The notes under the pieces: generated by a model
What the model was told of the DNA's origin: nothing
Database searches by the model: none
What the model saw: only the letters and a program-made list of their open reading frames with translations
Origin: a virus
Virus record (IMG/VR): IMGVR_UViG_3300017971_000098
Location: 1-45,081 of that record
DNA length: 45,081 bases
Reading direction: 5' to 3' (one strand)
In this document: piece after piece, positions 604 to 37,980 of the stretch
Position numbering within the stretch: the first letter of the stretch is position 1
How the letters are laid out: each line of letters opens with the position of its first letter
Made by a program: the position numbers and the translations under genes

Positions 604-670
604 TCTATCTCCTCCGGTTATGGGTTCCTGCGTCTCAAGTCAAGCGAGTTAACTCTGAGAAGCTTGATGC

Positions 671-913
671 TCACACGCCTGCACCAGTAGACCACCGAAA
701 ATCGACGTTAGTCGGCGAACAGTTCATGCCGTTTTCGCTGTGGAACTTGTGCGGGTTACGGTCGCTCTCATGATTAATGTCAGCTTCCAACACCGATAAC
801 GGTAAAACATAGAATCCTACGTCTGTAAAAGCGTGTACCACCAACCCAGCTTTTACACACGACAGCAGTGCCGATTTTAGTTTTTTACCTGCCTTTACTT
901 GCTCCTCATTCAT
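671..913 (-). CDS. Hypothetical protein, 80 residues
   Basis: I start it at the ATG at 913 because GGAGGAGATC lies just upstream; the open frame extends further upstream but without a better site. The N-terminus (MNEEQVKAGKKLKSALLSC) is a charged amphipathic helix, followed by a hydrophobic stretch and a polar tail with no visible motif. It is one of the small leftward genes of unknown role. Confidence 0.75.
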   Translation of the reverse strand: MNEEQVKAGKKLKSALLSCVKAGLVVHAFTDVGFYVLPLSVLEADINHESDRNPHKFHSENGMNCSPTNVDFRWSTGAGV

Positions 914-944
914 GATCTCCTCCAATCTTCTTGGTAATTTGGTG

Positions 945-1142
945 TTAGAAACCTTGAAAGTCCGGCAGGTTTTCAAATTCTTCCTCTTCCATCTCGATGG
1001 GGACGAATTGGTAGCCCTCTGTATCATCTCCGGCATACTCAAAGTTCCTGACCATTTCGTCCAGGATTTTTTTCGCATTTTCCGGGGTGTCGATGTACCC
1101 TTCTGCGCACCCCGGAACTGTCACTTTTATGTATGTTTTCAT
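945..1142 (-). CDS. Hypothetical acidic protein, 65 residues
   Basis: It begins MKTYIKVTVPG and ends in an acidic tail containing EMEEEEFENLPDFQ. The start is the ATG at 1142, with TTGGAGGATATC before it; a TTG four codons upstream overlaps the ribosome binding site and is rejected. The first half looks like a short beta strand followed by a helix (TPENAKKILDEMVRNFEYA). The acidic composition recalls phage proteins that mimic DNA or bind host proteins, but there is no motif to support that. Confidence 0.75.
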   Translation of the reverse strand: MKTYIKVTVPGCAEGYIDTPENAKKILDEMVRNFEYAGDDTEGYQFVPIEMEEEEFENLPDFQGF

Positions 1143-1186
1143 GATATCCTCCAATTCGTGTTGCTACTACCGGTTATCCACCGCGA

Positions 1187-1516
1187 TTATGCAACTTCGG
1201 GCACGTTTGCACCGATAGTCTTTTTCAACCAATCAGCCACTATCCTTCTGTGGCAAAATTTACCCGATTTCTCCCAACAAAGTAAAGTGTGATCTTTTAA
1301 GTCATTCCACACCTCTTGCGGGTCTAAATTCCCTAACACTTGTTCATGGTATGCTAGGGTGTAGGCGTATTCGTCGCCGTCGTCTTTATACTTTTTCAAG
1401 AAAGACCATTTCGGGTATAGCGCGGGGTAGGAAGGCCCGCTGAAGCCTGGCGCGGGTTTAATCGCTATATTAACGCCATCGGGGTGTTTATACTTAGCAA
1501 AATAAGAAGTTTGCAT
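1187..1516 (-). CDS. DUF488-like protein
   Basis: The 109-residue protein carries LLCWEKSGKFCHRRIVADWL near its C-terminus, matching the LLC-E--G-FCHR--VA-WL signature of the DUF488 family. Those proteins are small, occur in bacteria and phages, and have two conserved Cys and a His-Arg pair; their biochemical role is not established. Usual members are 110-180 residues, so this is a short version. The start at 1516 has an AGGAGCG site. It lies in the leftward operon between two unknown small genes. Confidence 0.7.
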   Translation of the reverse strand: MQTSYFAKYKHPDGVNIAIKPAPGFSGPSYPALYPKWSFLKKYKDDGDEYAYTLAYHEQVLGNLDPQEVWNDLKDHTLLCWEKSGKFCHRRIVADWLKKTIGANVPEVA

Positions 1517-1541
1517 AACAATCCGCTCCTGATCATCGGCG

Positions 1542-1733
1542 TTAGATTGCTCTACCGCCTGGTTTCCTGATATAACCTATAAAATTTCCGCATATTGAAA
1601 TCCCATAAAGGTAAAAATACTCTAAGTGGTTAAGTATGATTCTTGGTTTCCTCGGTGACCTCTTAGGAACTTCTAACAAAAATGGACCTTTGTGCATCTG
1701 GCCTTTTAACTCCTTATTCCAATAAAATTTCAT
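1542..1733 (-). CDS. Hypothetical basic protein, 63 residues
   Basis: Small Lys/Arg-rich protein (MKFYWNKELKGQMHKG at the start) with an aromatic hydrophobic middle (HLEYFYLYGISICGNFIGY) that may be a short beta hairpin or weak membrane segment. The ATG at 1733 has AAGGAGGGGGC upstream, within the end of the preceding gene, and overlaps that gene's TGA (ATGA at 1730-1733). The two are therefore translationally coupled. No family recognised. Confidence 0.75.
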   Translation of the reverse strand: MKFYWNKELKGQMHKGPFLLEVPKRSPRKPRIILNHLEYFYLYGISICGNFIGYIRKPGGRAI

Positions 1734-2308
1734 GCCCCCTCCTTGGTTCTGGTAAGCTTGCCGTTATGCCCCCAACCGAAAAACGCCCACCCGGCGGACC
1801 GTACGCCAAGATACATCGTAGTGGCCAAAAGCCACCCGTCGACTTTGTTTACATCCCTCCAAAGCCTCAGGTCCACCATAAGCCGAGCGAAGTATTTGCT
1901 CGTCCCAGGCTTCGGGCCGAGCCAGTACCCAACATCGTGCCAGAAGCACGCCTCGTGGAGATCCGAGTCAAAAACTCGATCCGGAAACAAGGTACATCCA
2001 TCGGACACGAATACATCCTTCGGAGCCCATCGCAATTTATTGACGATATCCTCTCTTCTTCTGAGCGCCGCAAGGAACATCAATGCGCGACCGGTCAGCG
2101 GAACGCCTTCGAGGGTCTCCATGCCCCCGTTCTCCATGTACCGCACGACCGCGTCGTACTCGTTATACTGGGCGGTGAAAATTCTTCTGTAGCGCTCTGC
2201 GGGGGTTAACCGCCTGTACGATACCTCGGGTTGCTTGTTCCTCAGTTTAATTTCGTAGCGATCTTCTGGTCCGAACTCCACGAATTTTATGCCGTTGTCT
2301 TTACTCAT
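1730..2308 (-). CDS. Phospholipase A2-like fold protein (tentative)
   Basis: Protein of 192 residues. In the middle, a DGC motif (VFVSDGCTLFPD) is followed about 15 residues later by HEACFWHDVGYWLG. A glycine/cysteine loop followed by C--HD--Y is the layout of the Ca-binding loop and active-site helix of the phospholipase A2 superfamily, including short bacterial and viral members. The following helix (KYFARLMVDLRLWRDV) and the Gly/Ala/Trp-rich C-terminus are consistent with a small membrane-active protein. I infer the fold from the motif only. The start at 2308 has AAAAGGAGACAAGG and overlaps the end of the preceding gene by 8 bases. Confidence 0.6.
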   Translation of the reverse strand: MSKDNGIKFVEFGPEDRYEIKLRNKQPEVSYRRLTPAERYRRIFTAQYNEYDAVVRYMENGGMETLEGVPLTGRALMFLAALRRREDIVNKLRWAPKDVFVSDGCTLFPDRVFDSDLHEACFWHDVGYWLGPKPGTSKYFARLMVDLRLWRDVNKVDGWLLATTMYLGVRSAGWAFFGWGHNGKLTRTKEGA

Positions 2309-2993
2309 CCTTGTCTCCTTTTACCTTGCTCGCGCCCGCACAACGCAATAGCGCGAGTGGCATGGCGTAGTCGTAAATGTGCAGTGATTTCGTGGACGCT
2401 ATGATCGGCCCACGCTCGACACCGATTTCGTTACAAAGCATTTCTTGGATTATGGCTATCGCGGCCAAATTCGCGGGGAGCCCCGCCCATAATTCCCAAG
2501 AGCGGAAGTACGGGTACATGATCAATTCTCCGTCCATTACTTTCATATCTACATGTCTAAGGCATGGGGGATCATGCAGCGATAAGTCTCCCGGCGCGGC
2601 GATCTGTATCACAGCGTGGTTTGTCCCTGGCGATGCTTTAAGCTTCTGGGAACACTGCTCGATCTGGTTGTCAATACGCTGCCCATAGGTGTAGTCCTCG
2701 TTGGGCGCTTTCGTATTCCCCAAGACCACTTTTTGGATGTATTCTTCTATGTATCCCTCTCCAACCGGGTCTGGAATCCCAAGGCCTTTGGGAATTATCG
2801 GGCGCATTAAATCCCAGGGCTCTTGATACGCATTGTGGACTTCCAGGACTACGAAGTCCGGAATCTCAATGCGGTCCTGACATTCGAATGACCCTAAGTC
2901 AACTCGATACCGTCGGTTATTTTGCACCAAATGGTACAGCGCCATGAACCATACATCCGGAATTCCCCCTGGCGCGTATATCTTCGTTATCAT
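2301..2993 (-). CDS. Thymidylate-synthase-family enzyme (dUMP-type pyrimidine C5 methyl/hydroxymethyl transferase)
   Basis: The C-terminal half matches the thymidylate synthase fold: catalytic-site DPPC (Cys144), FRSWELWAGLPANL (Arg164, Ser165, Asn175) and LHIYDY (His205, Tyr207). It most resembles the short archaeal/phage branch. The residue equivalent to the base-selecting Asn of thymidylate synthase is Asn175; deoxycytidylate hydroxymethylases carry Asp there, so dUMP is the likelier substrate. Unusual points: the usual RSxD aspartate is Glu167, and the paired phosphate-binding arginines before the sheet appear as Asn-His (GTNHAVI). It could make dTMP or 5-hydroxymethyl-dUMP. The start at 2993 has GAAGGAGTGGTAAA. 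Confidence 0.75.
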   Translation of the reverse strand: MITKIYAPGGIPDVWFMALYHLVQNNRRYRVDLGSFECQDRIEIPDFVVLEVHNAYQEPWDLMRPIIPKGLGIPDPVGEGYIEEYIQKVVLGNTKAPNEDYTYGQRIDNQIEQCSQKLKASPGTNHAVIQIAAPGDLSLHDPPCLRHVDMKVMDGELIMYPYFRSWELWAGLPANLAAIAIIQEMLCNEIGVERGPIIASTKSLHIYDYAMPLALLRCAGASKVKGDKDE

Positions 2994-3018
2994 TTTACCA
3001 CTCCTTCGGTTCCTCGAT

Positions 3019-3375
3019 TTATAGATCTGCTGTTAACAGATCTACCCCTGAGAGATTAGTTCCAAAAAGCGCCGCGTCCGATAAATCTGCATTTAATATA
3101 TCCGCTCCGGAGAGATCTGCCCCGGAGAGATCCGCCCATCGGAGACTGGCCCCGGAGAGATCTGCCCCGGAGAGATCTGCCATTCGGAGATCGGACCATC
3201 GGAGATCGGCCCCTGAGAGATTGGCCCGTCGGAGCTCGGCCCCTGAGAGATTGGTCCTTCGGAGACTGACCCCCCGGAGATTGGCCCCTGAGAGATTCGC
3301 GCCCGAAATATTTAAACGCTTGGTGCCTTGACGGCCTTGACGGCATTTAATGCAGCAATATAACTCATAATTCAT
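3019..3375 (-). CDS. Pentapeptide-repeat protein
   Basis: From about residue 20 the 118-residue protein is built of tandem A(D/N)L(S/R)x(G/x) pentapeptides (SGANL SGANL RGVSL and so on), close to 19 repeats. These should fold into a right-handed quadrilateral beta helix. Proteins of this type include DNA-mimicking gyrase inhibitors (Qnr, MfpA) as well as many of unknown role. The short head has a CCIKC cluster. The ATG at 3375 overlaps the upstream stop (TAATG). The longer open frame in front belongs to the shadow of the upstream gene. A TAGATCTG/CAGATCTA inverted repeat spans its last codons at 3022-3044. Confidence 0.85.
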   Translation of the reverse strand: MNYELYCCIKCRQGRQGTKRLNISGANLSGANLRGVSLRRTNLSGAELRRANLSGADLRWSDLRMADLSGADLSGASLRWADLSGADLSGADILNADLSDAALFGTNLSGVDLLTADL

Positions 3376-3683
3376 TATAGTACCTCGTACCCGGCTAATT
3401 TCAGTAACAAGTGTGCGGCGTATTCTTTGCCGCACAGTCCGTGGAACGCCAGTATATCCCGACAAGGGTCTTTGGTGACCGCATACCCTGGACGAAATGC
3501 TGACCACCTTTGCCTGCCGGTTTGTTTTATCTCGCCAACCTCCCGATAGCCTGGTATTCCTTCCCCATGACTCGCGGGCTCCGGGGGGAACACCACTCTA
3601 ACTATATAGCTTCTTCCGGTTGTGCGCTTCGTTTCGAATTCTAGCACCGTTTTACTATATAGTGATCTAACCGACTTTCTCAT
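3375..3683 (-). CDS. Hypothetical protein, 102 residues
   Basis: Basic N-terminus (MRKSVRSLYSK) followed by alternating strands and a C-terminal helix with a Cys (LCGKEYAAHLLLKLAGYEVL). No family recognised. Its ATG overlaps the TGA of the transglycosylase gene (ATGA at 3680-3683) and its stop overlaps the pentapeptide gene start, so three genes are chained by translational coupling. Confidence 0.75.
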   Translation of the reverse strand: MRKSVRSLYSKTVLEFETKRTTGRSYIVRVVFPPEPASHGEGIPGYREVGEIKQTGRQRWSAFRPGYAVTKDPCRDILAFHGLCGKEYAAHLLLKLAGYEVL

Positions 3684-4246
3684 GACGCGACCCTCCGAGT
3701 TTTAAATACCGTGTAAGCGATATTCACCCGCTCCAGATACGGCAGCAGTGCGCGGTATCGCGAGTTGTATAGCCACAATGCGCCAATAAGTTGAAAACGT
3801 GATGTGCTCCCGGTTTTATCCTCGTAGAATCGCATGCCGTCTAGGGCTCTTCTGACGTTGCCGTACCCTGCGTTGTACATACAGAGGGCGACATCCAACT
3901 GCTTGTGTGATTCCTTCGTCATGTGTTTTGCTCTTTCCACGCACCAGTTCAGGTATTTGCATCCGACCCGAATGTTTGTTTCCGGGTCCACCGCACGCGC
4001 TTCGAAGTCTCTGGACAGAACGCTCGTATCCTCCATGTCCCAATACGTCGGTTCGGTCAACTGCATAATGCCCGTTGCCCCTATGGGGGATTTCGCCGTC
4101 GGGTTTAGTCTCGATTCGACAAAACCGAGCGCTTTGGCGAACCTCCAATCGATATCCGGGTACTTGTCGCAAGCAAGCAAGAACATTCCGTCGTATTCTG
4201 CTGTGGCCTGCTGCGCTTCACGTATAAAACCGTTTAAGTTTTTCAC
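3680..4246 (-). CDS. Lytic transglycosylase (SLT domain), probable endolysin or virion-entry muramidase
   Basis: The 188-residue protein has the SLT/goose-lysozyme-like signatures: AKALGFVESRLNP with catalytic Glu44, GATGIMQLTEPT (residues 56-67) and CMYNAGYGN (122-130). Such enzymes cleave the MurNAc-GlcNAc bond of peptidoglycan with 1,6-anhydro product formation. There is no signal peptide or membrane segment, so export would need a holin. The start is GTG at 4246 with GGAGGACAAA directly upstream. It lies in the leftward operon, away from the virion genes, which favours host lysis over a virion role. Possible partners are the small membrane proteins at 6489 and 7080. Confidence 0.88.
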   Translation of the reverse strand: MKNLNGFIREAQQATAEYDGMFLLACDKYPDIDWRFAKALGFVESRLNPTAKSPIGATGIMQLTEPTYWDMEDTSVLSRDFEARAVDPETNIRVGCKYLNWCVERAKHMTKESHKQLDVALCMYNAGYGNVRRALDGMRFYEDKTGSTSRFQLIGALWLYNSRYRALLPYLERVNIAYTVFKTRRVAS

Positions 4247-4279
4247 TTTGTCCTCCGGACTTTATAGTCATCAATTCTT

Positions 4280-4513
4280 TTATTCCAGAAAAAACCATTT
4301 GTCATACGCGATATCCGCCCGCCTGGCCAGTGTTTTGATGGGGCTGCCCCCCTCCTTTACACCGACGAACAACTGCGCTCCGGAGTTCCCAAGACACCCT
4401 TTTGTTGCTGCGCGACAAGCAGCTTGGACCGTTCCGGCGCGGCAAGGTCTCCACTCCAATTCTATTTCTGATTGCTCGGGAGATAGCCTCCCAATGAAAT
4501 ATTTTTTACTCAT
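4280..4513 (-). CDS. Hypothetical Cys-containing protein, 77 residues
   Basis: No family recognised. Three cysteines at the spacing CRAGTVQAACRAATKGC may form a metal site or disulphides. The ATG at 4513 has AAAAAAGGAGCTAAA upstream. The C-terminus (IAYDKWFFLE) is aromatic. A 33-base gap separates it from the transglycosylase gene. Confidence 0.7.
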   Translation of the reverse strand: MSKKYFIGRLSPEQSEIELEWRPCRAGTVQAACRAATKGCLGNSGAQLFVGVKEGGSPIKTLARRADIAYDKWFFLE

Positions 4514-4535
4514 TTTAGCTCCTTTTTTACGCTAA

Positions 4536-4991
4536 TTACTTTCGGGGGAACTTGGCCATAACAGGCCGGTTTCTCTGGACGAATCTTACCATTCTTCGCG
4601 CTGGTCTTCCTGCGCGCCAAGGCTGTTCCGCAATCAGGTACCAAACCCGTAGTCTTACCAATCTTCCTGCTACCCACGGTTGCTCTGTGAGCCTGTACCA
4701 AGCCCACGATCTTAGCGGGATCATCTCAGCCGGGTACGCGGGTTCAACGCGACGGGATTTCCACTGGAAAAGCCGACGCCGCCTCCTGATTTCCCTTCTG
4801 GAGGGTTCAGGATTACTGCACCTATACAGTCGTTGAACCGGTGTACCTAGCGGACTTTCGAGCATCGGGGACCAGTTACTTGTTGGCGAGTCCCCTTCTA
4901 CATACGTGTATTCGCAATACGCTTGGTTCGGTGAATACCCCGCAGCGATTCGGCGGAGCACCCGTGTCCAAAAATCGTTGTAGTTCATCAT
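4536..4991 (-). CDS. Hypothetical basic protein with internal Trp/Arg repeat
   Basis: I start this 151-residue protein at the ATG at 4991 because GGAGGTGG precedes it by eight bases; the upstream extension lies over the next gene. The first half is neutral. The C-terminal 60 residues are strongly Arg-rich and contain a duplicated block, RSWAWYRLTEQPWVAGRLVR and RVWYLIAEQPWRAGRPAR, visible as a direct DNA repeat near 4610-4710. The basic tail could bind nucleic acid or membrane. No homologue recognised. Confidence 0.65.
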   Translation of the reverse strand: MMNYNDFWTRVLRRIAAGYSPNQAYCEYTYVEGDSPTSNWSPMLESPLGTPVQRLYRCSNPEPSRREIRRRRRLFQWKSRRVEPAYPAEMIPLRSWAWYRLTEQPWVAGRLVRLRVWYLIAEQPWRAGRPARRMVRFVQRNRPVMAKFPRK

Positions 4992-4992
4992 G

Positions 4993-5184
4993 TTAACCAC
5001 CTCCAGGTCTAAACCCTCCGGCCCATCCGTCCGGTCGGTACATTGATTGTGTGTAAGTACACCTGAATAGTCCCTTAATGACCACAACCCCACCAACAGG
5101 TTCGAAATTGCTGCTAATCAGCTTGTTTACCTTAGCTTCCAACTCTTGCGCTGTATGCGCCTGTACCACCATAAACCGTTTCAT
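4993..5184 (-). CDS. DUF1737-like small protein
   Basis: The 63 residues follow the DUF1737 pattern: a first strand (MKRFMVVQAHTAQ), a helix (ELEAKVNKLI), then a strand with F-PVGGVVV and a closing YTQSMYR. These short alpha/beta proteins are common in phages and bacteria and have no assigned function. The start codon lies directly after the upstream stop (TAAATG) with GGTGG as ribosome binding site. The C-terminus is Gly-rich. Confidence 0.7.
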   Translation of the reverse strand: MKRFMVVQAHTAQELEAKVNKLISSNFEPVGGVVVIKGLFRCTYTQSMYRPDGWAGGFRPGGG

Positions 5185-5634
5185 TTAATCCACCAAATAG
5201 GCTTTGGTGATACGGATGAACTGGTCTCGAGCTTCTGCCGAGAACCCGTCCGTATAGTAGGTGTTGTTTTTTACCTTGCTTATCCACGCGTTTACCGCGT
5301 CTACTGACGGAAATATGCCGACCGGTAAACGTCTGGTGATCTGCAATACCAGAACTTGACTGGCGTGCGGGACATACTCCCATGATCCGTCAGGGTTGAA
5401 TCTGACATCTATATCCGGAATGTACCCCCAGTGCTCTGATACTGGAGTGATGCTTTGCAGCAACTCCGGACCCCATTCTCGGATGACTCGCCGCTGACCT
5501 CTACGGCCTTCTTTTATCAAACTCGGGCGACGGACCCTATCCTCCAGCTCTCGCACGAGCTGGTCTTCTCCTTTCCCCTTGAGCGCGGCGATGACTCTCG
5601 CATATTCGCTCGCGGACAATGATATTTTACTCAT
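5185..5634 (-). CDS. Hypothetical protein, 149 residues
   Basis: No family recognised. The N-terminal 50 residues are charged and helical (KGKGEDQLVRELEDRVRR), followed by a mixed region and a C-terminal part that alternates strand and helix. The ATG at 5634 has only a weak AGGACACG element upstream. It is the head of a coupled pair with the DUF1737-like gene. Confidence 0.7.
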   Translation of the reverse strand: MSKISLSASEYARVIAALKGKGEDQLVRELEDRVRRPSLIKEGRRGQRRVIREWGPELLQSITPVSEHWGYIPDIDVRFNPDGSWEYVPHASQVLVLQITRRLPVGIFPSVDAVNAWISKVKNNTYYTDGFSAEARDQFIRITKAYLVD

Positions 5635-5646
5635 ACTATGCGTGTC

Positions 5647-5880
5647 CTAATTAAATGTTTTTAAGAAAAAGTCATGTTCAATACGTACAGCTTCGGGGTG
5701 CCTTGCGTGCATTATGACCACCCATCGGCCCCCCATCTGCTGCAAGACCGCGTACATTTCACCGTCAATACCGCTGCTGTCCACAGCGGCTTCAACGGCT
5801 TGGTGGAAGTCGCGGTATACGTCCGATTTTTCATCCACGTATGTTGGACGAAACATCGATACCCTTTGAATTCGGAACAT
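5647..5880 (-). CDS. Hypothetical protein, 77 residues
   Basis: Starts MFRIQRVSMFRP; the ATG at 5880 follows AAAAGGTGGTCGCA, and a GTG three codons earlier overlaps that site and is rejected. Predicted helix (YRDFHQAVEAAVDSSG) then a strand pair (MYAVLQQMGGRWVVIMHA). It may be a small alpha/beta domain. Unknown function. Confidence 0.72.
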   Translation of the reverse strand: MFRIQRVSMFRPTYVDEKSDVYRDFHQAVEAAVDSSGIDGEMYAVLQQMGGRWVVIMHARHPEAVRIEHDFFLKTFN

Positions 5881-5892
5881 TGCGACCACCTT

Positions 5893-6240
5893 TTAAGATC
5901 CGCCCGGCGCGCTGTCCGCGACACTGGCGGCCACATTATTAAACCCCTCATCCAAGGAGCTCTTCAACAGGTCTATCTTCGCTGATAGCTCTGCCACGTA
6001 TGCTTCGATATCCGTTTTCGATACATCGTCGGCGTTCACCTCGTCGACGGCCGCCTGAATGCGCGTGAGCAGCTCTTGGACGCTCAAACCGGTCTCGCAG
6101 TATACCGCCCCGGTATACACTCGAGTTTGCACCGGATATGTAGTGCGAACCGGAAAGAGCCGGTTTATCGCGTCGACTGCGAGAGCCGACTGTTTGTCTG
6201 GGTACGTGTAGCTGGGCAGTAGTATAAACGCTTTTTTCAT
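5893..6240 (-). CDS. Hypothetical protein with C-terminal coiled coil
   Basis: The 115-residue protein has an N-terminal alpha/beta part (KKAFILLPSYTYPDKQSA) and a long helical C-terminal part (IQAAVDEVNADDVSKTDIEA onward) with heptad-like spacing, suggesting oligomerisation. The ATG at 6240 has TGAGGAGAGGAC. No family recognised; cytoplasmic by composition. Confidence 0.75.
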   Translation of the reverse strand: MKKAFILLPSYTYPDKQSALAVDAINRLFPVRTTYPVQTRVYTGAVYCETGLSVQELLTRIQAAVDEVNADDVSKTDIEAYVAELSAKIDLLKSSLDEGFNNVAASVADSAPGGS

Positions 6241-6249
6241 GTCCTCTCC

Positions 6250-6477
6250 TCAATATATGGCTTCAAGTATTTTTTCCAACAGATTGTCGGTATCTTCGGC
6301 GTTCGCTATCATGGCCTCAAGCTCCTCGGGCGTTTCGCTTACGAGGAAAAACCCTACAGGGGTTTCAATCCGCGTCGCGCCCTCGACAGGCACGAGGCGC
6401 ATGATTGTTCGCGTGGCTATCCTTCCGGGGTCGTTCGCGCCTGCAACTCTGGTGGGCTCAATAAATACAGTTTTCAT
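6250..6477 (-). CDS. Hypothetical acidic protein, 75 residues
   Basis: Begins MKTVFIEPTRVAG, a predicted strand, and ends in an acidic helix (ETPEELEAMIANAEDTDNLL). A single small alpha/beta domain is likely. The start at 6477 has TAAAGGAGAAAACG. Unknown function. Confidence 0.75.
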   Translation of the reverse strand: MKTVFIEPTRVAGANDPGRIATRTIMRLVPVEGATRIETPVGFFLVSETPEELEAMIANAEDTDNLLEKILEAIY

Positions 6478-6488
6478 CGTTTTCTCCT

Positions 6489-6707
6489 TTATACGTTCTC
6501 TTTCGATGGTATCGGTAAAGGCCTTGGTTCATACACGGAACAGCTCTTTTTACAACTGTTCAACATTTGCTGAAGCTGCTCCGCCTTTTTTTGCCAAAGC
6601 TGCCGTGAGATCCCTTGCACGGTCAGCTCCTTTTGCATTTGCGCCTGCTCGTAGGCCAACAAGCCAAGAGCCGAAGCCAGAATCAAGATTAATAAACTGC
6701 GTAACAT
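6489..6707 (-). CDS. Small membrane protein with periplasmic helix, i-spanin-like
   Basis: The 72 residues begin with a transmembrane segment (LRSLLILILASALGLLAY, about residues 2-19). A Gln/Lys-rich helix (LWQKKAEQLQQML) follows, then a short Cys-containing and Pro-rich tail. An N-terminal anchor followed by a coiled-coil ectodomain is the layout of inner-membrane spanins (Rz type) and of some holins. Its length is short for Rz. I start at the ATG at 6707, which has CAGGAGAACAAC; the longer frame is the shadow of the next gene. No overlapping o-spanin lipobox was found. The lysis role is inference from topology and the nearby transglycosylase. Confidence 0.65.
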   Translation of the reverse strand: MLRSLLILILASALGLLAYEQAQMQKELTVQGISRQLWQKKAEQLQQMLNSCKKSCSVYEPRPLPIPSKENV

Positions 6708-6721
6708 GTTGTTCTCCTGTT

Positions 6722-7000
6722 TCACTTCATCCATACGGCGCACCGGTAACCTATACCCGGTGCCACTTTTATGCCGTTCGGGTACTGGCCTCCGGAGCCG
6801 ACCCGGACTTTCCCACCAATAGTGTAGCACTTTTTACGACTCTCCTTCAGCGCGTGCCATAGCGCGTCTGAAAAATTGTTGGGGTCTTTTGTGCTGGACA
6901 CTATTATCCAGATTTCCGCGTCATCCGGCCAATCGTTGGCCGCGAGTCTCCGCGATAGTATGGACCTTGGGTGGTCTTTGATATATTGCGACTTAATCAT
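6722..7000 (-). CDS. Paralogue A of a duplicated small protein family
   Basis: A 92-residue protein related to the gene at 9932-10168: YIKDHPRSILSRRLAANDWP here against YIRRHPKAKLTVALRENNWP there, and both continue to a helix with AL---KK then Y-(I/V)G. The ATG at 7000 has AAGGAGGTAGCC directly upstream, so the longer open frame is rejected. It lies directly downstream of RNA hairpin copy B (7029-7083). No outside family recognised. The conserved DWP/NWP and glycine suggest a small alpha/beta domain. Confidence 0.75.
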   Translation of the reverse strand: MIKSQYIKDHPRSILSRRLAANDWPDDAEIWIIVSSTKDPNNFSDALWHALKESRKKCYTIGGKVRVGSGGQYPNGIKVAPGIGYRCAVWMK

Positions 7001-7028
7001 CCTGTTGGCTACCTCCTTGTTGTAAGAG

Positions 7029-7083
7029 TTAATCCCAAGTCGTTGCCCGAGTACCCATATCTCGGGCAACAAGCTAAGATTAA
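7029..7083 (-). promoter_or_regulatory. Intercistronic RNA hairpin, copy B (diverged)
   Basis: Read on the minus strand, the element begins at the TAA of the gene at 7080-7232. It has an outer TTAATC/GATTAA pairing, an internal loop with AGCTTG on one side and CGACT on the other, an upper stem TTGCCCGAG/CTCGGGCAA (nine perfect pairs) and a 9-base apical loop. It shares frame, position and loop bases with the three copies at 9883, 10445 and 10734, but its upper-stem sequence differs while the pairing is kept. Confidence 0.75.
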
Positions 7084-7232
7084 CTTTTTTCGATTTTGTG
7101 CCCAAGGCCGTAGGCCCCGAGCGCCCCGGAGATTTTGGTCAGGCCTTGTTCGACGTCGCCATTAGCAATGTCGACGAGGCCCAGCAACAGCATCGCAACC
7201 GCTGCGGTTTTTGTTTTCCACCCTTTAATCAT
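7080..7232 (-). CDS. Small hydrophobic protein, holin-like
   Basis: A 50-residue protein. It starts MIKGWKTKTAAVAMLLLGLV and then has an amphipathic Gly/Ala-rich stretch ending in Lys/Glu. The W-K-T followed by a hydrophobic helix and a second glycine-rich hydrophobic helix is common in tiny phage membrane proteins found beside lysis genes. The ATG at 7232 has AAAGGAGGAAACC, a near-perfect ribosome binding site. Its stop codon begins RNA hairpin copy B. The holin role is inferred from size and hydrophobicity only. Confidence 0.7.
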   Translation of the reverse strand: MIKGWKTKTAAVAMLLLGLVDIANGDVEQGLTKISGALGAYGLGHKIEKS

Positions 7233-7267
7233 GGTTTCCTCCTTTAGTTCTTGTTATGCATTGTACC

Positions 7268-7678
7268 CTAATGTGTCGGGTAAAGTAGCATTTCAAAACC
7301 TTTTATCATCCCCCAGGCCCTTGAACGTACCCTTCGTTTACTTAAATCTGGGTTCCTCCAGAGGATAAATGTCTCTAACCTCCACCGCTCATAAAGGCTC
7401 GTTTCGAGCTCTTCGCACCCCCGGTCCCAACGTCCACCCCATAAGGGTAGCGCGATACACTCCGGACAAGCTCCAATAACGGTACCCGCGAACCCTCCTT
7501 GAAATCCCTGCCATTTACACGCTGGGCAGTCAAAATAGTACTCGTACTCCGGTTCCGAATGCTTTTCATTCGGCGCGGCGGACTGCGCGGTGATCATCCA
7601 CACTCTGAAGCATTCTCTCAGTACCTCCAGCTCCTCTTCGGTGTGGGAATTTCTTGGTTTTATCAACGATACATCCAT
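7268..7678 (-). CDS. Cys-pair (zinc-ribbon-like) protein, family member 1
   Basis: The 136-residue protein has two CxxC pairs, FDCPACKW and GACPECIA, about 17 residues apart, typical of a zinc-binding knuckle. The upstream helix (LEVLRECFRVWMITAQSAAP) matches the helix of the genes at 8536 and 8912 (ALQACRDLWIMTAQSETP). The C-terminus carries a basic helix. The start at 7678 has GAGGAGGACTCG. Proteins with this helix plus Cys-pair layout are widespread in phage early regions and have no known function. Possible roles are nucleic acid or host protein binding. Confidence 0.75.
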   Translation of the reverse strand: MDVSLIKPRNSHTEEELEVLRECFRVWMITAQSAAPNEKHSEPEYEYYFDCPACKWQGFQGGFAGTVIGACPECIALPLWGGRWDRGCEELETSLYERWRLETFILWRNPDLSKRRVRSRAWGMIKGFEMLLYPTH

Positions 7679-7815
7679 TTTACGAGTCCTCCTCTCGAAG
7701 TCCTAAAATAAACTTCTGCATTACGTTATAAAGCTCCCGCTTCGGTACGTATCCTGTGGGTAGGACATCTTCCGTTGCTGAACTGTTTTATTGGTGATCG
7801 ACCTCGATTCTATTC
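7679..7815 (-). other. Gap with possible degenerate reading frame
   Basis: The 137 bases between two leftward genes carry no gene with a normal start. On the minus strand one frame reads LPTGYVPKRELYNVMQKFIL and ends DS-stop just before the next gene's ATG. It looks protein-like but has no ATG, GTG or TTG start before a stop upstream. It may be the tail of a decayed gene. Confidence 0.35.
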
Positions 7816-8091
7816 TCACCTTTGTGGTCCCAAATACTCACGGTAATACCTCGCGTGCCGAGAGGGCGGGAACGCTGCTTTTCGGCGCAATTCTTTCGCC
7901 CAATCGCGCAGTAACGTTTCAGCTTTGCTCCCCCAGAACCCGCTTATTCCGTATAGCTCGTTAAGTATTTCCGTCATAAATATCTTGTCAAACGACGAGG
8001 TATCTAACTCCTGTACCTGACGCAAGAGGTCTTCAGTTGCTTGTTTATCGATATTCCAAGCATCTGCCCATTGCCGAATCATTCGTTCCAT
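7816..8091 (-). CDS. Hypothetical helical protein, 91 residues
   Basis: Mostly helical and charged (MERMIRQWADAWNID at the start, later LLRDWAKELRRKAAF), ending with a basic aromatic tail. No family recognised. The ATG at 8091 has AGAGGAATATTC upstream; a second ATG three codons later is possible. It follows the frame-shifted Cys-pair gene. Confidence 0.72.
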   Translation of the reverse strand: MERMIRQWADAWNIDKQATEDLLRQVQELDTSSFDKIFMTEILNELYGISGFWGSKAETLLRDWAKELRRKAAFPPSRHARYYREYLGPQR

Positions 8092-8127
8092 GAATATTCC
8101 TCTTTGTTGACTCTGTTTTTCCTTTTA

Positions 8128-8546
8128 TTATACCTGTCGGTCGAGATCGAACCGCTTACGCTCGTTCTCTGGCAGCAGGCTAATCAGGAACTCGACCTCC
8201 TGTTCGATGGCGTCGGACAAATCATTTCTCGCCTTCCGGCACTCGCGTGGACTGGTATGCCGGGGGGGTGTGCAAGTCGAAACTGCGCCTTGTGGACACG
8301 CACCCACGGTGTACCATTACATCCGGAGAGCCCTGTAGCGCGCTGGATAGGACAACCGTCGCAGTCGATAGCCGATCTCTCCTGAAGAAACAACTCGCAA
8401 AGATCGCAACTACCGCCCGAAGTGTCGGTATCTATCCCGTGGGCTAGGCGGTCCCAGTGGGCTATACTGCCCAAAAGGGCTAACAACTCCTCGTCGACCT
8501 CAACCATCTGCCGTAACGCCCCATTAATGATCTGTTCATGATCCAT
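8128..8546 (-). CDS. Cys-pair protein, family member 2, with -1 frame change at a C7 run
   Basis: The zero frame from the ATG at 8546 (GGGAGAAAAAGCC upstream) gives CDLCELF and later CDGCPIQ and GCNGTPW, a zinc-knuckle layout, but ends at 8184 in a low-quality tail. After the seven-G run at 8262-8268 (C7 on the coding strand, read CAC CCC CCC) the -1 frame continues as PRECRKARNDLSDAIEQEVE, then FLISLLPENERKRFDLDRQV, to TAA at 8128-8130. That looks like a genuine helical C-terminus. So either one base is missing from a C8 run or a -1 slip at C-CCC-CCC makes the full product of about 139 residues. The gene overlaps the end of its upstream relative. Confidence 0.7.
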
Positions 8547-8934
8547 GGCTTTTTCTCCCTATTTCTGTTTGCGCCGCATGGGCGATTCGCCAGGCAGCGG
8601 TTCTTATTTTGCGCTGGTTGCGATATACTCGCCCCAGGGTTACGACTCGATAGCGATGTACCCTCCAAGCAGCATACGGGGACTCTGGTCTCTTGCTGCA
8701 ACAACCTTCGGGCCATGCGACCTTCATGACGCAAACATCAGGGCAGTGCGTGCGCCCGTCATCCTGCCGGTTTAAAAAGTATTCGCAAGCCGGACAACCC
8801 CCTGTATACACCCTGAGCGCTTTCTCCGGTTTTTTCCACGGATTCTCGGACCTGGCGATCTCGATCCAAACGTCCCTACACGCCTGTAATGCCTCAATGA
8901 CTGTGGATTCTTTAGTGATTTGCGCAAATTTCAC
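8536..8934 (-). CDS. Cys-pair protein, family member 3 (tandem duplicate)
   Basis: Shares most of its N-terminal helix with the gene at 8912 (ITKESTVIEALQACRD in both), CPAC then CxxxC Cys motifs, W-(E/G)GC, and the C-terminal block RIRTAAWRIAHAAQ. The DNA for that last block is almost identical at about 8567-8607 and 8960-8997. The start is GTG at 8934 with GGAGGCTAAGAGGCC before it. It overlaps the downstream gene by 11 bases. A zinc-binding role is inferred from the cysteine spacing; function unknown. Confidence 0.78.
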   Translation of the reverse strand: MKFAQITKESTVIEALQACRDVWIEIARSENPWKKPEKALRVYTGGCPACEYFLNRQDDGRTHCPDVCVMKVAWPEGCCSKRPESPYAAWRVHRYRVVTLGRVYRNQRKIRTAAWRIAHAAQTEIGRKSHGS

Positions 8935-9295
8935 GGCCTCTTAGCCTCCATATTTCGTCTTGTGCCGCATGGGCGATTCGCCAGGCAGCAGTTCTTATTC
9001 GGCGGTTATTCTCGAACCATCCAACGCTCGCCCAACGCACAAAAAGCGATCCTCCACCACCGAGCAAGCAACCGCCCGGCCACGCGTTTTTCATTACGCA
9101 CGTTACCAAGCAGTCCGTTTCTGGGCTGTGCAACTCGTGATATGCACAGGCCGGACATCCTAGGCGATACAGCTTGCTTACGCCACGAGGCTTTTTATTC
9201 GGCGTTTCTGACTGCGCTGTCATGATCCATAGGTCTCGGCAGGCTTGTAATGCTTCAATGACTGTGGATTCTTTAGTGATTTTTTGAAGTTTCAT
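8912..9295 (-). CDS. Cys-pair protein, family member 4 (tandem duplicate)
   Basis: A 127-residue relative of the neighbouring gene at 8536. It carries CPACAY, then CLVTCVMKNAWPGGC, and the RIRTAAWRIAHAAQ block. Its 3' end overlaps the neighbour's start by 23 bases, as expected from unequal tandem duplication. The ribosome binding site before the ATG at 9295 is weak (GGTGTAAGACC). The stop of the clamp-like gene overlaps its start (ATGA). Confidence 0.77.
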   Translation of the reverse strand: MKLQKITKESTVIEALQACRDLWIMTAQSETPNKKPRGVSKLYRLGCPACAYHELHSPETDCLVTCVMKNAWPGGCLLGGGGSLFVRWASVGWFENNRRIRTAAWRIAHAAQDEIWRLRGREICANH

Positions 9296-9861
9296 GGTCT
9301 TACACCTGTTTTGACTAACGCGGCGATTAATCCCTCGACATTACCGCAAGATATTAATACGTAACCGCCTTTTCTGATTTCGATTTTTGTAGGCCCTAAA
9401 TCGCTCTTCCGTTTTGTGTTGGCCTGCCGCAAGATCTTGCAAGCATTTTCCAGCTCCGATAATGCGACAGTGACCTTGGTCACGGCTTCGAGTGGTTTTT
9501 CGCTGACGGTTTCCATTAATCCTCTCGCTGCTGGGTACCTCGTCGGACTGGATATCTCGCAAGCAAATGTCGCTTTATCGGTCTTGATCGAGCATTCCTC
9601 GCCGTCCCAAGTTAACGTCGCTTTTTCTTTTTTACTCATCGTCTTTGCGGCAGCTTTAAGCGCTTCCACGCCCAAGCACGCCTCAAAGTTGTTGGCGTCT
9701 TCGAGCTTCGCCCTCCAAATCGACGCCCCGTTCGATGCGTACAGGCAACCCTCTGATATTAGTACGTAATTCTTCAGTATGTAATCCCCTACTGTGCTGA
9801 CGCCTGCCGGGGGATTGTCCGCTGCATGCAATACCGCCAGTTCTCGTTTATTAATCTTCAC
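9292..9861 (-). CDS. Possible beta-clamp-like protein
   Basis: A 189-residue protein made mainly of alternating short strands and two helices. The order (LKNYVLISEGCLYASNGAS, a helix GVEALKAAAKTM, then strands with DKATFACE and a P-ARGLME segment) recalls one domain of phage sliding-clamp-like proteins, which bind substrate proteins on DNA. The similarity is structural and weak. No clamp motif is decisive, and one domain pair is short for a ring subunit. The start is GTG at 9861 with GGAGGACAACGC. RNA hairpin copy 1 lies just upstream. Confidence 0.6.
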   Translation of the reverse strand: MKINKRELAVLHAADNPPAGVSTVGDYILKNYVLISEGCLYASNGASIWRAKLEDANNFEACLGVEALKAAAKTMSKKEKATLTWDGEECSIKTDKATFACEISSPTRYPAARGLMETVSEKPLEAVTKVTVALSELENACKILRQANTKRKSDLGPTKIEIRKGGYVLISCGNVEGLIAALVKTGVRP

Positions 9862-9882
9862 GCGTTGTCCTCCTGCTTGATG

Positions 9883-9934
9883 TTAATCACGAGTCGTCGC
9901 CCCCGGAGGGTCCGGGAGCAACAAGCCGGGATTA
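9883..9934 (-). promoter_or_regulatory. Intercistronic RNA hairpin, copy 1
   Basis: A 52-base element that starts, on the minus strand, at the TAA stop of the gene at 9932-10168 and ends 21 bases before the GTG of the clamp-like gene. The upper stem TTGCTCCCGGA/TCCGGGGGCGA closes a CCC loop with 11 pairs, two of them G-U. The outer TAATC/GATTA pair encloses conserved internal-loop bases. Confidence 0.8.
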
Positions 9935-10168
9935 GGCTACGGCGTACCAAAGACCTTCAGAGCGGCGCTGACGGCGTGCGCCGACTACGTACGCGCCTTT
10001 TTTGGCCCTTTGCAGGGCTTTGTACAAATTACTTCTTTTATCGTCAGGAGCGTGTTTCCCTCCGACGATCTCGATCCCGGTATCCTCGGGCCAATTATTT
10101 TCCCGCAACGCGACGGTTAGTTTAGCCTTCGGATGTCTGCGTATGTACTCCGCTTTGGTCGTTTTCAT
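9932..10168 (-). CDS. Paralogue B of a duplicated small protein family
   Basis: A 78-residue protein related to the gene at 6722-7000: YIRRHPKAKLTVALRENNWP, a helix LYKALQRAKK, then AYVVGARR. The ATG at 10168 has AGGAGGAAAAATC and overlaps the upstream TGA. Basic overall. Its stop codon is the first triplet of RNA hairpin copy 1. No outside family recognised. Confidence 0.77.
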   Translation of the reverse strand: MKTTKAEYIRRHPKAKLTVALRENNWPEDTGIEIVGGKHAPDDKRSNLYKALQRAKKGAYVVGARRQRRSEGLWYAVA

Positions 10169-10428
10169 GATTTTTCCTCCTGATAATACCTGGCGACTTC
10201 AGGTCGTTCATTGATAAATTCCTGGATCAGCTCCTCGATATGCGCCTCAATGTAATCGCTTCTCCAGGGTTGCGCGGGGTTGAGCGGGTGACGGCTGGTC
10301 GGGTGGACCCCGTGCGCCAACAAGTCGTAGTCTTGTATGCACCGTGCGTGGCGCAGCGCCTTCCAGTTCCCTTTCGAGTGATCGCGTGCGTACAGGTCTT
10401 CGAGGATTCCTATCAGTGTCGTTTTCAT
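10165..10428 (-). CDS. Hypothetical protein, 87 residues
   Basis: Helical protein starting MKTTLIGILEDLYARDHSKG. The true start is taken as the ATG at 10428 with CAGGAGACGAAGCC; the GTG at 10452 lies inside RNA hairpin copy 2 and would add eight residues copied from it, so it is rejected. The C-terminus (AHIEELIQEFINERPEVARY) is a charged helix. Unknown function. Confidence 0.75.
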   Translation of the reverse strand: MKTTLIGILEDLYARDHSKGNWKALRHARCIQDYDLLAHGVHPTSRHPLNPAQPWRSDYIEAHIEELIQEFINERPEVARYYQEEKS

Positions 10429-10444
10429 GGCTTCGTCTCCTGGG

Positions 10445-10496
10445 TTAATCACGAGTCGTCGCCCCCGGATGGTCCGAGGGCAACAAGCCGGGATCA
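10445..10496 (-). promoter_or_regulatory. Intercistronic RNA hairpin, copy 2
   Basis: Same architecture as copy 1, beginning at the TGA of the gene at 10494. The upper stem is TTGCCCTCGGA/TCCGGGGGCGA with a CCA loop. Relative to copies 1 and 3, the G-U pair has moved from the fifth to the seventh position while every position still pairs as RNA. Seen as plus-strand DNA these positions are C-A mismatches, so only the minus-strand transcript folds fully. Confidence 0.8.
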
Positions 10497-10703
10497 GCGT
10501 GGCCGGTCAGATACGTACAAGGCTGCTTCCGGGCGTCCGATCTCCACACAAAAAGGGATGCCAAAAGTGTTTCCAGGCTTCGGCCGGCTCTCGAATTGGT
10601 ATGCGCGAGTTTTGCGTCCGCGCTCAATCGTAACGGTGGTGTGTACCCAGTTGGTACATCCTGCGTCCTCATCAACCTTAAAAGAGTTACATGTGATTTT
10701 CAT
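10494..10703 (-). CDS. Hypothetical protein, 69 residues
   Basis: Begins MKITCNSFKVDEDAGCTN. Two cysteines and several predicted strands (WVHTTVTIERGRK, TFGIPFCVEIG) suggest a small beta domain. The ATG at 10703 has CAGGAGGCAGCC. It is flanked on both sides by copies of the RNA hairpin (copy 3 upstream, copy 2 downstream). Confidence 0.75.
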   Translation of the reverse strand: MKITCNSFKVDEDAGCTNWVHTTVTIERGRKTRAYQFESRPKPGNTFGIPFCVEIGRPEAALYVSDRPR

Positions 10704-10733
10704 GGCTGCCTCCTGTTTTGGTGGTTTTGCGGG

Positions 10734-10785
10734 TTAATCACGAGTCGTCGCCCCCGGAGGGTCCGGGAGCAACAAGCCGGGATTA
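10734..10785 (-). promoter_or_regulatory. Intercistronic RNA hairpin, copy 3
   Basis: Identical to copy 1 through the conserved 50 bases; begins at the TAA of the first operon gene (10783) and ends 30 bases before the ATG at 10703. Because it follows the first gene of the operon, a processing or attenuation site here would set the level of all downstream genes. Confidence 0.8.
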
Positions 10786-10974
10786 CAGCACTTGGGAAGA
10801 TATGAGAGTCACGTGGTATGATGGGTCGTAGTTTTGTTTCGCCATCCACAACGCGTGGCCCGGGTTGAGACCTTTAAACTCCTCGATCCACCGGTTGATG
10901 CCGGTTAGAGGGCAGTAAATCTTTACAGACACTCGTACGCTTACGGGGTAATTTTGCTCTTGATATGTTTTCAT
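10783..10974 (-). CDS. Hypothetical protein, first long gene of leftward operon
   Basis: A 63-residue protein, MKTYQEQNYPVSVRVSVKIY at the start, with predicted strands then a helix (NPGHALWMAKQNYD). The ATG at 10974 has AAGGAGGGCAAACC. It is the first gene behind the tandem leftward promoters and therefore likely the earliest and most abundant product. Function unknown. Confidence 0.77.
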   Translation of the reverse strand: MKTYQEQNYPVSVRVSVKIYCPLTGINRWIEEFKGLNPGHALWMAKQNYDPSYHVTLISSQVL

Positions 10975-10986
10975 GGTTTGCCCTCC

Positions 10987-11064
10987 TTAATTACACGTTA
11001 GCCGATTGAGCGAGGATGTCAAGTGCAAAAGTGACAAAATGTCTTTTTGCGCTTGGTGGGCCAT
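10987..11064 (-). CDS. Possible leader peptide, 25 residues
   Basis: A short frame MAHQAQKDILSLLHLTSSLN plus five residues, ending TAA at 10987. Its ATG and upstream GAGAGGGCGAG resemble the TTAATTAAGGAGGGC-ATG context of the first operon gene, because promoter, leader and start codon are duplicated 88-89 bases apart. It overlaps the proximal promoter copy. It may be a by-product of the duplication rather than a gene. Confidence 0.3.
   Translation of the reverse strand: MAHQAQKDILSLLHLTSSLNRLTCN
10995..11022 (-). promoter_or_regulatory. Leftward promoter P1 (proximal copy)
   Basis: On the minus strand TTGACA (11022-11017), a 16-base spacer, then TAACGT (11000-10995). The -35 is perfect for sigma-70 and the -10 is weak. 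It lies 20 bases before the ATG at 10974. The TAACGT context (GGCTAACGTG) recurs at the leftward promoter near 40468. Confidence 0.55.
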
Positions 11065-11083
11065 CTCGCCCTCTCTTAATTAC

Positions 11084-11111
11084 ATGATAGCCGATTGAGT
11101 GAGGATGTCAA
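11084..11111 (-). promoter_or_regulatory. Leftward promoter P2 (distal copy)
   Basis: TTGACA (11111-11106), a 16-base spacer, then TATCAT (11089-11084), a better -10 than that of P1. It is part of a direct repeat: about 55 bases around P1 (10987-11042) are repeated with few changes around P2 (11076-11131). Both should drive the operon down to 349. Confidence 0.7.
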
Positions 11112-11168: not shown

Positions 11169-11424
11169 GGCGTCGCAAAACTCTGAGGCGGCGTCGCAAA
11201 TCTAATAAGATAAAAATAGATTTGCGGCGACCGTAAGTGTACGATATGACTAGGTGGCGTCGCAAAACCAAAAATCGGCGTCGCAAATCTAATAAGATAG
11301 AAATAGATTTGCGGCGACCGGATGTGTTGGATATGACTCGGATAGTGGTGTTTTTAGGGGGTCGGCGTCGCAAAATCGGGCGATTTTCAGAAAGAGTTTG
11401 GCGTGGAATTGAAACAAAAATGGA
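11169..11424. repeat. Large inverted repeat, left arm
   Basis: A 256-base arm, imperfectly complementary to 11864-12119. It contains five GGCGTCGCAAA-type half-sites in plus orientation and two TTTGCGGCGACCG in inverse orientation, arranged into two hairpins (11195-11226 and 11282-11313) 87 bases apart. Each hairpin has a 10-bp perfect stem CGCAAATCTA/TAGATTTGCG and a 12-base AT loop. No credible gene: the open frame here is rich in Arg/Lys only because the half-sites are read as codons. Confidence 0.85.
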
Positions 11425-11620
11425 CATGTGGTTGAATTCCTTGGATGTGTTTGTAACTGTTGAATAGTACTATAAGTTATCTAGGTATAATTTTGGGGGA
11501 TAATATATAAGGTTTTTGGCCGTTGATAACATTATCTCGGACTTTTATCCTTAGATAATTATACACTTTGATACTTTAATGCCTTTATGTATATATTCTA
11601 CATACTTACCCTATTTTTTT

Positions 11621-11683
11621 CTCGCGCGCGTGAAAGTATATATAGTAAAATAATATACATATATACCCTTTCGCGCGCGGGAG
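11621..11683. repeat. Central palindrome with (CG)4 and (TA)n blocks
   Basis: CGCGCGCG at 11623-11630 and again at 11672-11679 flank TGAAAGTATATATA and its near-complement TATATACCCTTT. The centre, about 11651, lies within about 7 bases of the centre of the large inverted repeat (11644). Alternating purine-pyrimidine blocks favour Z-DNA or cruciform extrusion. Confidence 0.6.
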
Positions 11684-11694
11684 AAGATAAGAAT

Positions 11695-11796
11695 ATGGAT
11701 AAACTATTGATAATACACCATGAAGGTATCTCAATAAAATTACCTGAGATAATAGCTAATAAAACCGAAGATATACCAAAGGAATTATCGCGGTAA
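11695..11796 (+). CDS. Possible 33-residue peptide in AT-rich core
   Basis: ATG at 11695 preceded by GGGAGAAGATAAGAAT gives MDKLLIIHHEGISIKLPEII then NKTEDIPKELSR. A second block 59 bases downstream could encode KLPEMIYNKNGDI in another frame, so the locus may be an eroded repeat peptide. It is isolated, in an origin-like region, and could be chance. Confidence 0.25.
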   Translation: MDKLLIIHHEGISIKLPEIIANKTEDIPKELSR

Positions 11797-11838
11797 AATT
11801 ACCCGAGATGATATATAATAAAAACGGAGATATACAAA
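11736..11838. repeat. Direct repeat pair, about 43 bp
   Basis: AAAATTACCTGAGATAATAG at 11736 and AAAATTACCCGAGATGATAT at 11795 start two blocks that stay alike through ATACCAA / ATACAAA (period 59). The repeat carries the GAGATRAT word also found, inverted, at 11531 and 12589, so it may be a protein-binding site. Confidence 0.6.
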
Positions 11839-11863
11839 CACAATCAATGATTTAAATCATTTA

Positions 11864-12119
11864 TCCATTTTTGTTTTAACTTTGCGCCAAACTCTTTCTG
11901 AAAATGGGCTGATTTTGCGACGCCGACCCCTCAAAAAGTGACCATCTGAAGTAATATCCAACACATCCGGTCGCCGCAAATCTAATAGGATAATAATAGA
12001 TTTGCGACGCCAAATTTGAGTTTTGCGACGCCGACTAATAAATACATACACTTACGGTCGCCGCAAATCTAATAAGATAAAAATAGATTTGCGACGCCAA
12101 CTTTGAGTTTTGCGACGCC
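11864..12119. repeat. Large inverted repeat, right arm
   Basis: Same length (256 bases) as the left arm and complementary to it, with hairpins at 11975-12006 and 12062-12093, again 87 bases apart. Five TTTGCGACGCC half-sites and two GGTCGCCGCAAA are present. The hairpin loops (ATAGGATAATAA, ATAAGATAAAAA) keep the same plus-strand direction as in the left arm although everything around them is inverted. Confidence 0.85.
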
Positions 12120-12136: not shown

Positions 12137-12210
12137 TATACACTTGCAGTTGTGCAGTTAGACACTTGGAGCTTTGCAGTTATGTAGTTTGTTTTGGCAG
12201 TTTGACAGTT
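12137..12210. repeat. Degenerate 8-bp iterons, right inner flank
   Basis: TGCAGTTG, TGCAGTTA, GACACTTG, GAGCTTTG follow each other at 12145-12176, then looser copies of CAGTTxTG. These are the complement of the TAACTGC words on the other side, so the iterons also take part in the overall dyad. Confidence 0.4.
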
Positions 12211-12350
12211 GTCCGCGTGCGTGTGGGCTAACTGCTGGATATAGTGCATGATCTGCTTATGTCCTAAAGATCTGGCGCGATAATGGTTGGTTAGACGGCC
12301 GGAAGGGGTGAAGTGCCACCATCACACACATGCGCCGAGAACTACTATGC
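12211..12350. other. Intergenic stretch without recognised gene
   Basis: Between the two iteron groups. It holds one more GGCTAACTGCTGG at about 12227 and otherwise mixed sequence with no start codon and ribosome binding site worth calling. Nothing else is seen in it. Confidence 0.4.
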
Positions 12351-12438
12351 CTAACTGCCTAACTGCCTAACTGCTTACCTGTTGACCTGCTAAAGTGAGT
12401 AAGTGCTAAACATTATAACTGCTTAATTGCGTAATCTA
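12351..12438. repeat. 8-bp iterons, right outer array
   Basis: Eleven units in strict 8-base register: three perfect CTAACTGC, then TTACCTGT, TGACCTGC, TAAAGTGA, GTAAGTGC, TAAACATT, ATAACTGC, TTAATTGC, GTAATCTA. The consensus is NTAACTGC. The array decays outwards as expected for an old tandem repeat under relaxed selection. Iterons of this kind bind initiators or regulators. Confidence 0.65.
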
Positions 12439-12486: not shown

Positions 12487-12563
12487 TATGACAAGAAAAA
12501 TTTTTGGCCCCGCCGTGGAGGTCGTGGGAAAAATGACCGCGCCGCTCTAGCCTCCCACCCTCA

Positions 12564-12695
12564 GAAACATTTTTTCTATTTTTTCATTATCTCGGTATTT
12601 TTTCGGTGTTTAATTTTCTTTGACCTTCGGAAATATTTTTTATATTTTTTCATTAAAGCTATATTTTTTCCGGAGTTATTTTTCTTTGACAATCA
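12564..12695. repeat. Tandem 66-bp T-rich repeat carrying promoter elements
   Basis: Two units with period 66: each has GAAAYAT, runs of TTTTTT, TTTTTTCATTA and ends TTTTCTTTGAC. The repeat duplicates a -35-like TTGAC box upstream of the virion operon, mirroring the duplicated promoter on the leftward side. Confidence 0.65.
12620..12648 (+). promoter_or_regulatory. Candidate rightward promoter for virion operon
   Basis: TTGACC (12620-12625), a 17-base spacer, then TATTTT (12643-12648). The second repeat unit carries TTGACA (12686-12691), but the best -10 at 17 bases is only TACGTT and would start transcription within the ribosome binding site. The upstream pair is therefore preferred. Confidence 0.5.
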
Positions 12696-12732
12696 AAAAA
12701 TTCTAATGTACGTTTAATTAAGGGGATTACTT

Positions 12733-34509: not shown

Positions 34510-34510
34510 G

Positions 34511-35244: not shown

Positions 35245-35254
35245 TGCGTACTCC

Positions 35255-35904: not shown

Positions 35905-35914
35905 TCGTAGTACC

Positions 35915-37966: not shown

Positions 37967-37980
37967 TTACCGAGAGCCTT

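Follow-up and report, generated by a model that had tools for sequence, protein, structure and literature searches.

A 951-bp dyad of inverted site arrays is a probable replication origin in an uncultured phage

The window analyzed here, the whole 45081-bp record of an uncultured phage, contained a 951-bp dyad at positions 11169 to 12119, and this dyad is probably the replication origin of the phage or its main one, with inverted iteron arrays placed around an unwinding element. The support for this reading is architectural and consists of conserved, inverted, non-palindromic arrays, the least stable core in the genome, outward promoter-like flanks, and the phage's own replication genes. The first 123 bases of the record are repeated exactly at its end, and the simplest map is therefore a circle of 44958 bp. 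For most tailed phages that carry their own replication genes, the origin has, to our knowledge, not been mapped.

Inverted site arrays and the AT-rich core

The whole dyad, arms and core, was recovered by blastn of the window against its own reverse complement as an imperfect inverted repeat (71.9% over 977 columns, E of 1e-123, 439 bits), and the same search found no comparable second long inverted repeat in the whole phage window. The left arm (11169 to 11424, plus strand) consisted of two tandem copies of an 87-bp unit followed by a fifth direct site, and the right arm (11864 to 12119, minus strand) was its inverted copy, with the 87-bp unit likewise repeated. The two 256-bp arms matched without a gap at 203 of 256 positions, which corresponds to a divergence of 21% with zero net indel. 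Because the arms lack a net indel, all seven mirror pairs of sites gave a common center at 11644, as the initial annotation had stated. This annotation had described a perfectly centered dyad of 951 bp; the dyad is real and unique in the genome, but its arms are 79% identical and not perfect copies.

The sites in the arrays were 11-bp, non-palindromic GGCGTCGCAAA elements. Ten exact copies were present in the whole window, and every one of them was inside the dyad, five in each arm. Pattern searches placed the direct sites of the left arm at 11169, 11190, 11256, 11277, and 11364 on the plus strand, with two GTCGCCGCAAA variants at 11221 and 11308 that were inverted relative to the direct sites. 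In the right arm, the mirror sites were located on the minus strand at 11914, 12001, 12022, 12088, and 12109 (spanning 11914 to 12119), and the GTCGCCGCAAA variants were located on the plus strand at 11970 and 12057. Each arm thus held the seven half-sites that had been annotated, and the total was 14 sites in 951 bp. All ten exact sites faced the center of the dyad and the four variants faced outward. Paired direct sites were spaced by 21 bp, about two helical turns. Multiple copies of a short sequence-specific site, which are expected in an origin of the iteron/DUE type, were therefore present as ten exact and four variant copies.

The mismatches between the arms avoided the sites. None fell in the 79 site columns, versus 53 in the 177 other columns (hypergeometric P of 1.8e-10), and the avoidance held when the hairpin loops were excluded (P of 2.2e-8). 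Because the site columns showed no mismatch while the other columns differed, the sites look selected. Gene conversion could be an alternative cause of the likeness of the arms; however, the mismatches were spread through the intervals between the sites, which favors selection on the sites as the simpler explanation.

The region between the arms (11425 to 11863, 439 bp) had a GC content of 30%, compared with 51% for the genome. It contained the least stable 400 bp in the genome, a segment starting at 11464 with -1.162 kcal/mol per step (mean of -1.426, standard deviation of 0.048). The adjacent AT-rich and easily melted region of an iteron/DUE origin was thus found in this segment. The core was itself significantly symmetric, with a half-to-half global score of -11 versus -101 (standard deviation of 14) in 300 dinucleotide shuffles. 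Inverted-repeat search and folding confirmed the inner palindrome that had been noted in the core (11614 to 11690), with CGCGCGCG arms at 11614 to 11644 and 11660 to 11690 that were 81% complementary and an AT-rich center near 11651, offset by 7 bp from the center of the arms. The stretch from 11600 to 11700 showed a fold z-score of -6.9. Diverged ATCTCGG-type repeats were also present in the core between 11477 and 11838 (at 11477, 11726, and 11785).

Hairpins and the strand of their loops

Four hairpins of the form CGCAAATCTA-N12-TAGATTTGCG were found at 11195, 11282, 11975, and 12062, with a spacing of 87 bp in each arm, in agreement with the initial annotation. Their DNA folding z-scores were -4.2 to -6.4, and each hairpin was formed by one GTCGCCGCAAA variant and one opposite-facing direct site. 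The hairpin cores on the plus strand, at 11195 to 11226, 11282 to 11313, 11975 to 12006, and 12062 to 12093, carried the loops ATAAGATAAAAA, ATAAGATAGAAA, ATAGGATAATAA, and ATAAGATAAAAA, respectively. Despite the inversion of the arms, the 12-nt loops read alike on this one strand in all four hairpins, and the symmetry is broken here. Comparison of the loops on one strand gave identity at 9 to 12 of the 12 positions, whereas comparison as inverted copies gave only 4 to 5 of 12, and flipping the loops of the left arm raised the arm identity from 203 to 215 of 256. The hairpin cores are therefore direct repeats inside inverted arms, and the mirror symmetry claimed earlier does not extend to the hairpin loops.

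Either the loops were flipped between their stems and then homogenized, or the strand of the loop matters. Under free flipping by template switching, four random flips would agree in 1 of 8 cases, so selection on the loops is not established. A speculative and quite doubtful extension is that the arrays are mirror symmetric and the hairpins are strand-specific single-strand elements facing one way, in which case a geometrically bidirectional origin would be functionally one-directional. In that case the hairpins might serve, for example, as loading sites for primase or helicase. Because they break the mirror symmetry, the same-way loops were counted against the origin reading.

Gene order, replication genes, and relatives

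The dyad lies in a 1758-bp gap, by far the largest intergenic gap of the phage (the second largest is 303 bp), where the two largest gene blocks diverge, as had been annotated. It is thus outside what appear to be the transcription units. The leftward block (349 to 10974, minus strand) contains small genes and genes for thymidylate synthase, a transglycosylase, and a clamp-like protein. The rightward block (12733 to 33173, plus strand) encodes TerS, TerL, a portal-type connector, the major head protein, and tail proteins; terS starts at 12733 with terL next, and TerS matched GP3_package and phrog_606. A third block (33142 to 40434, minus strand) encodes a SNF2-type helicase, a VRR nuclease-like protein, PolA, SSB, and an exonuclease, and the fourth (40570 to 44951, plus strand) encodes a helix-turn-helix (HTH)-looking small protein and a 981-aa protein. 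In the leftward block, the product of 1730 to 2308 (minus strand) showed a weak match to prokaryotic phospholipase A2 (E of 0.0003, below the Pfam cutoff). Three small minus-strand proteins of this block (7268 to 7678, 8536 to 8934, and 8912 to 9295) appeared to be mutual paralogues with paired cysteines, and two of them had a KITKESTVIEALQACRD-like start.

Motif searches detected three copies of TTGACA-N23-TAATTAAG in the whole genome, all around the dyad and all directed outward. Two were on the minus strand, one within a promoter-like TTGACA-N16-TATCAT sequence at 11075 to 11111 and the other within TTGACA-N16-TAACGT at 10986 to 11022, in a 57-nt repeat. The third, with the same TTGACA-N23-TAATTAAG spacing, was on the plus strand before terS (12686 to 12722). 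The motif common to these promoter-like sites looks as if one regulator served both operons. The second divergent junction of the phage (40435 to 40569) is an ordinary 135-bp gap, in contrast to the dyad gap, with TTGACA-N18-TAACGT directed leftward and a TTGACG/TACTAT pair directed rightward.

The 1758-bp gap was rich in duplications, with spacings of 87, 89, 66, and 59 bp. Nine AACTGC/GCAGTT hexamers, four followed by five in the opposite orientation, were clustered in 277 bp between the dyad and terS (12146 to 12422), a density unmatched by 20000 random placements. Within this second iteron-like cluster, which adjoins the dyad, CTAACTGC was repeated in tandem at 8-bp spacing. A 66-bp tandem duplication (79%) at 12557 to 12688 overlapped the rightward promoter-like site and fell within the 200 bp of lowest GC content in the genome.

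The phage has several replication genes. The annotated polymerase was identified as PolA, and the other products include a Gp2.5/Enc34-like SSB, an exonuclease, a SNF2-type helicase (SNF2/ResIII match), and the clamp-like protein (9292 to 9861, minus strand, in the leftward block), which matched phrog_947, a family of phage DNA polymerase processivity factors, with an E value of 1e-5. The annotated primase-helicase fared less well. The P-loop region of the 981-aa product of 40855 to 43800 was weakly similar to a phage protein annotated as helicase or primase (E of 0.03, 29% over 106 aa), but neither profile nor structure confirmed the assignment; the protein had zero Pfam matches even at an E value of 10 and no PDB match, and its predicted structure (pLDDT of 35) was uninformative. 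We think that primase motifs are perhaps visible by eye in its N-terminus, an impression that no tool supported. No recognizable initiator gene was found beside the dyad, and the end of the candidate 981-aa gene is about 12.8 kb from the dyad on the circular map, a distance that was counted against the origin reading. The HTH-looking ORF (40570 to 40842, 90 aa) showed a weak repressor match (E of 0.2), and Rfam and tRNA scans were empty.

Strand composition was examined using GC skew at fourfold sites. Across the dyad, the skew rose from -0.13 to +0.18, but this switch coincides with the switch in gene direction, so the skew is compatible with an origin at most. In addition, if replication ran from 11.6 kb to an antipodal terminus at 34.1 kb, a clearly negative skew would be expected at 33 to 40 kb, whereas the skew in this block of minus-strand genes was +0.023, a sign that contradicts the prediction. 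The skew check suggested by the initial annotation thus gave the switch at the dyad, but the switch is confounded with gene direction and the block at 33 to 40 kb disagrees.

The dyad had no match in phage and plasmid records, and exact-pattern scans of viral contigs for the hairpin and the paired sites gave nothing. In genome contigs, the paired-site scan returned three matches, all without a dyad and all apparently due to chance or unrelated repeats: three copies beside other repeats (L017), an isolated pair (L018), and a four-copy tandem repeat in GC-rich DNA (L019). Searches with TerL, PolA, the portal protein, and the 981-aa protein found one close relative (L004, 66% in TerL), whose contig breaks off 58 bp before terS and does not reach the dyad region; other near relatives may be hidden. 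Five distant complete phages showed no comparable inverted repeat, and they are too distant, with insufficient synteny, for a fair test.

Origin function and competing explanations

The best explanation found for the dyad is still the replication origin proposed by the initial annotation, a probable reading that was reached by architecture, the skew being confounded with gene direction. In the proposed mechanism, a sequence-specific initiator, probably encoded by the phage, would bind the 11-bp GGCGTCGCAAA sites in both inverted arrays. The two arrays would assemble cooperatively and bend or loop the core, which would then melt. Once the strands are separated, the opposite-facing site pairs may extrude as hairpins and load helicase and primase, and replication would start at the dyad.

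Such an origin would probably work like HSV oriS or RSF1010 oriV, a comparison that carries no evidence of kinship; the likeness to known origins would be one of working principle, not of descent. In HSV-1 OriS, an AT-rich spacer separates Boxes 1 and 2, which have opposite orientations, and Box 3 pairs with Box 1 in a hairpin (PMC12543377). The dyad resembles OriS and OriL, the origins served by UL9, in its short non-palindromic inverted boxes, its AT-rich spacer, and its hairpins made from two opposite boxes, a correspondence of layout only. However, OriS fits its three boxes into less than 100 bp, whereas the dyad has its 14 sites in 951 bp and two hairpins per arm. HSV uses the UL9 origin-binding protein, whereas the helicase of the phage with the SNF2/ResIII match is of the broad SF2 kind. 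The oriV of the IncQ plasmid RSF1010 combines iterons with hairpin single-strand initiation sites, ssiA and ssiB, for the plasmid-encoded primase (PMC4234260; PMC4434180). The dyad also combines iteron-like sites with hairpins, but RSF1010 has one ssi per strand and the dyad has four hairpins with all loops facing the same way. No relatives of RepA, RepB', or RepC were found in the phage.

A stem-loop has been proposed as the origin for the primase-helicase replication proteins of plasmid pRN1 and Bordetella phage BIP-1 (PMC4234260). These large stem-loops are found immediately 3' of the replication gene, whereas the dyad is far from the candidate gene, whose 3' end is overlapped by the next ORF (43790). 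The replication proteins of this type combine a primase domain with an SF3 helicase; the phage candidate, the 981-aa protein, showed only its weak P-loop match to an annotated helicase. Unlike pRN1, the dyad also has iteron-like arrays. In phage P4, the primase-helicase (alpha protein) binds repeated short origin sites (PMC4234260). No relative of the alpha protein was identified in the phage. P4 ori and crr are like the dyad in having repeated short sites, but the mirror arrangement of the dyad is different.

It is rather unlikely that the dyad instead serves long-range transcription control, with a phage repressor or activator binding the arrays and looping the core to balance the two divergent operons without any role in replication. 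Consistent with this explanation, the dyad exactly separates the two largest divergent blocks of genes, the outward promoter-like sites on both flanks share a genome-unique motif, and the HTH-looking ORF could be the regulator. However, the sites overlap neither promoter, the nearest being 58 bp upstream of the left -35 element and 567 bp upstream of the right one. Moreover, such control would require neither 14 sites spread across 951 bp nor a core of such extreme instability, and the other divergent promoter pair of the phage needs only 135 bp. Packaging is improbable as the function: TerS would bind a pac site here and start headful packaging beside its own gene. The pac sites of headful phages are usually in or beside terS, short, and asymmetric. 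The terS and terL genes are indeed the next genes after the dyad, and the exact 123-bp repeat at the two ends is consistent with a circular or permuted map, but packaging is directional and a mirror-symmetric site gives no direction, and the least stable region of the genome would be unexpected there.

Partition and recombination sites, too, typically contain short sites arrayed with inverted symmetry. A centromere-like or dimer-resolution site, bound by a segregation protein or a recombinase, is nevertheless very improbable, and no ParA, ParB, integrase, or resolvase was recognized among the proteins scanned, which covered only some of the small ORFs. The abundance of duplications throughout the gap would suit a functionless relic of an inverted duplication or an assembly artifact, an explanation that is scarcely tenable. 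A chimera would give perfect copies, and the arms differ at 21% of positions, which argues against an artifact; the relic is already largely refuted by the avoidance of the sites by mismatches. A hairpin telomere or joined terminal repeats were also rejected, since near-perfect arms would be expected versus the 79% found.

The dyad is conspicuous. Its repeated motifs can be counted, the hairpin can be synthesized as an oligonucleotide, and the region expected to melt is obvious, which makes the origin question directly testable in this one phage. If the origin reading is true, a bacterial virus would have reached the layout of a herpesvirus origin, together with an odd strand asymmetry of its hairpins.
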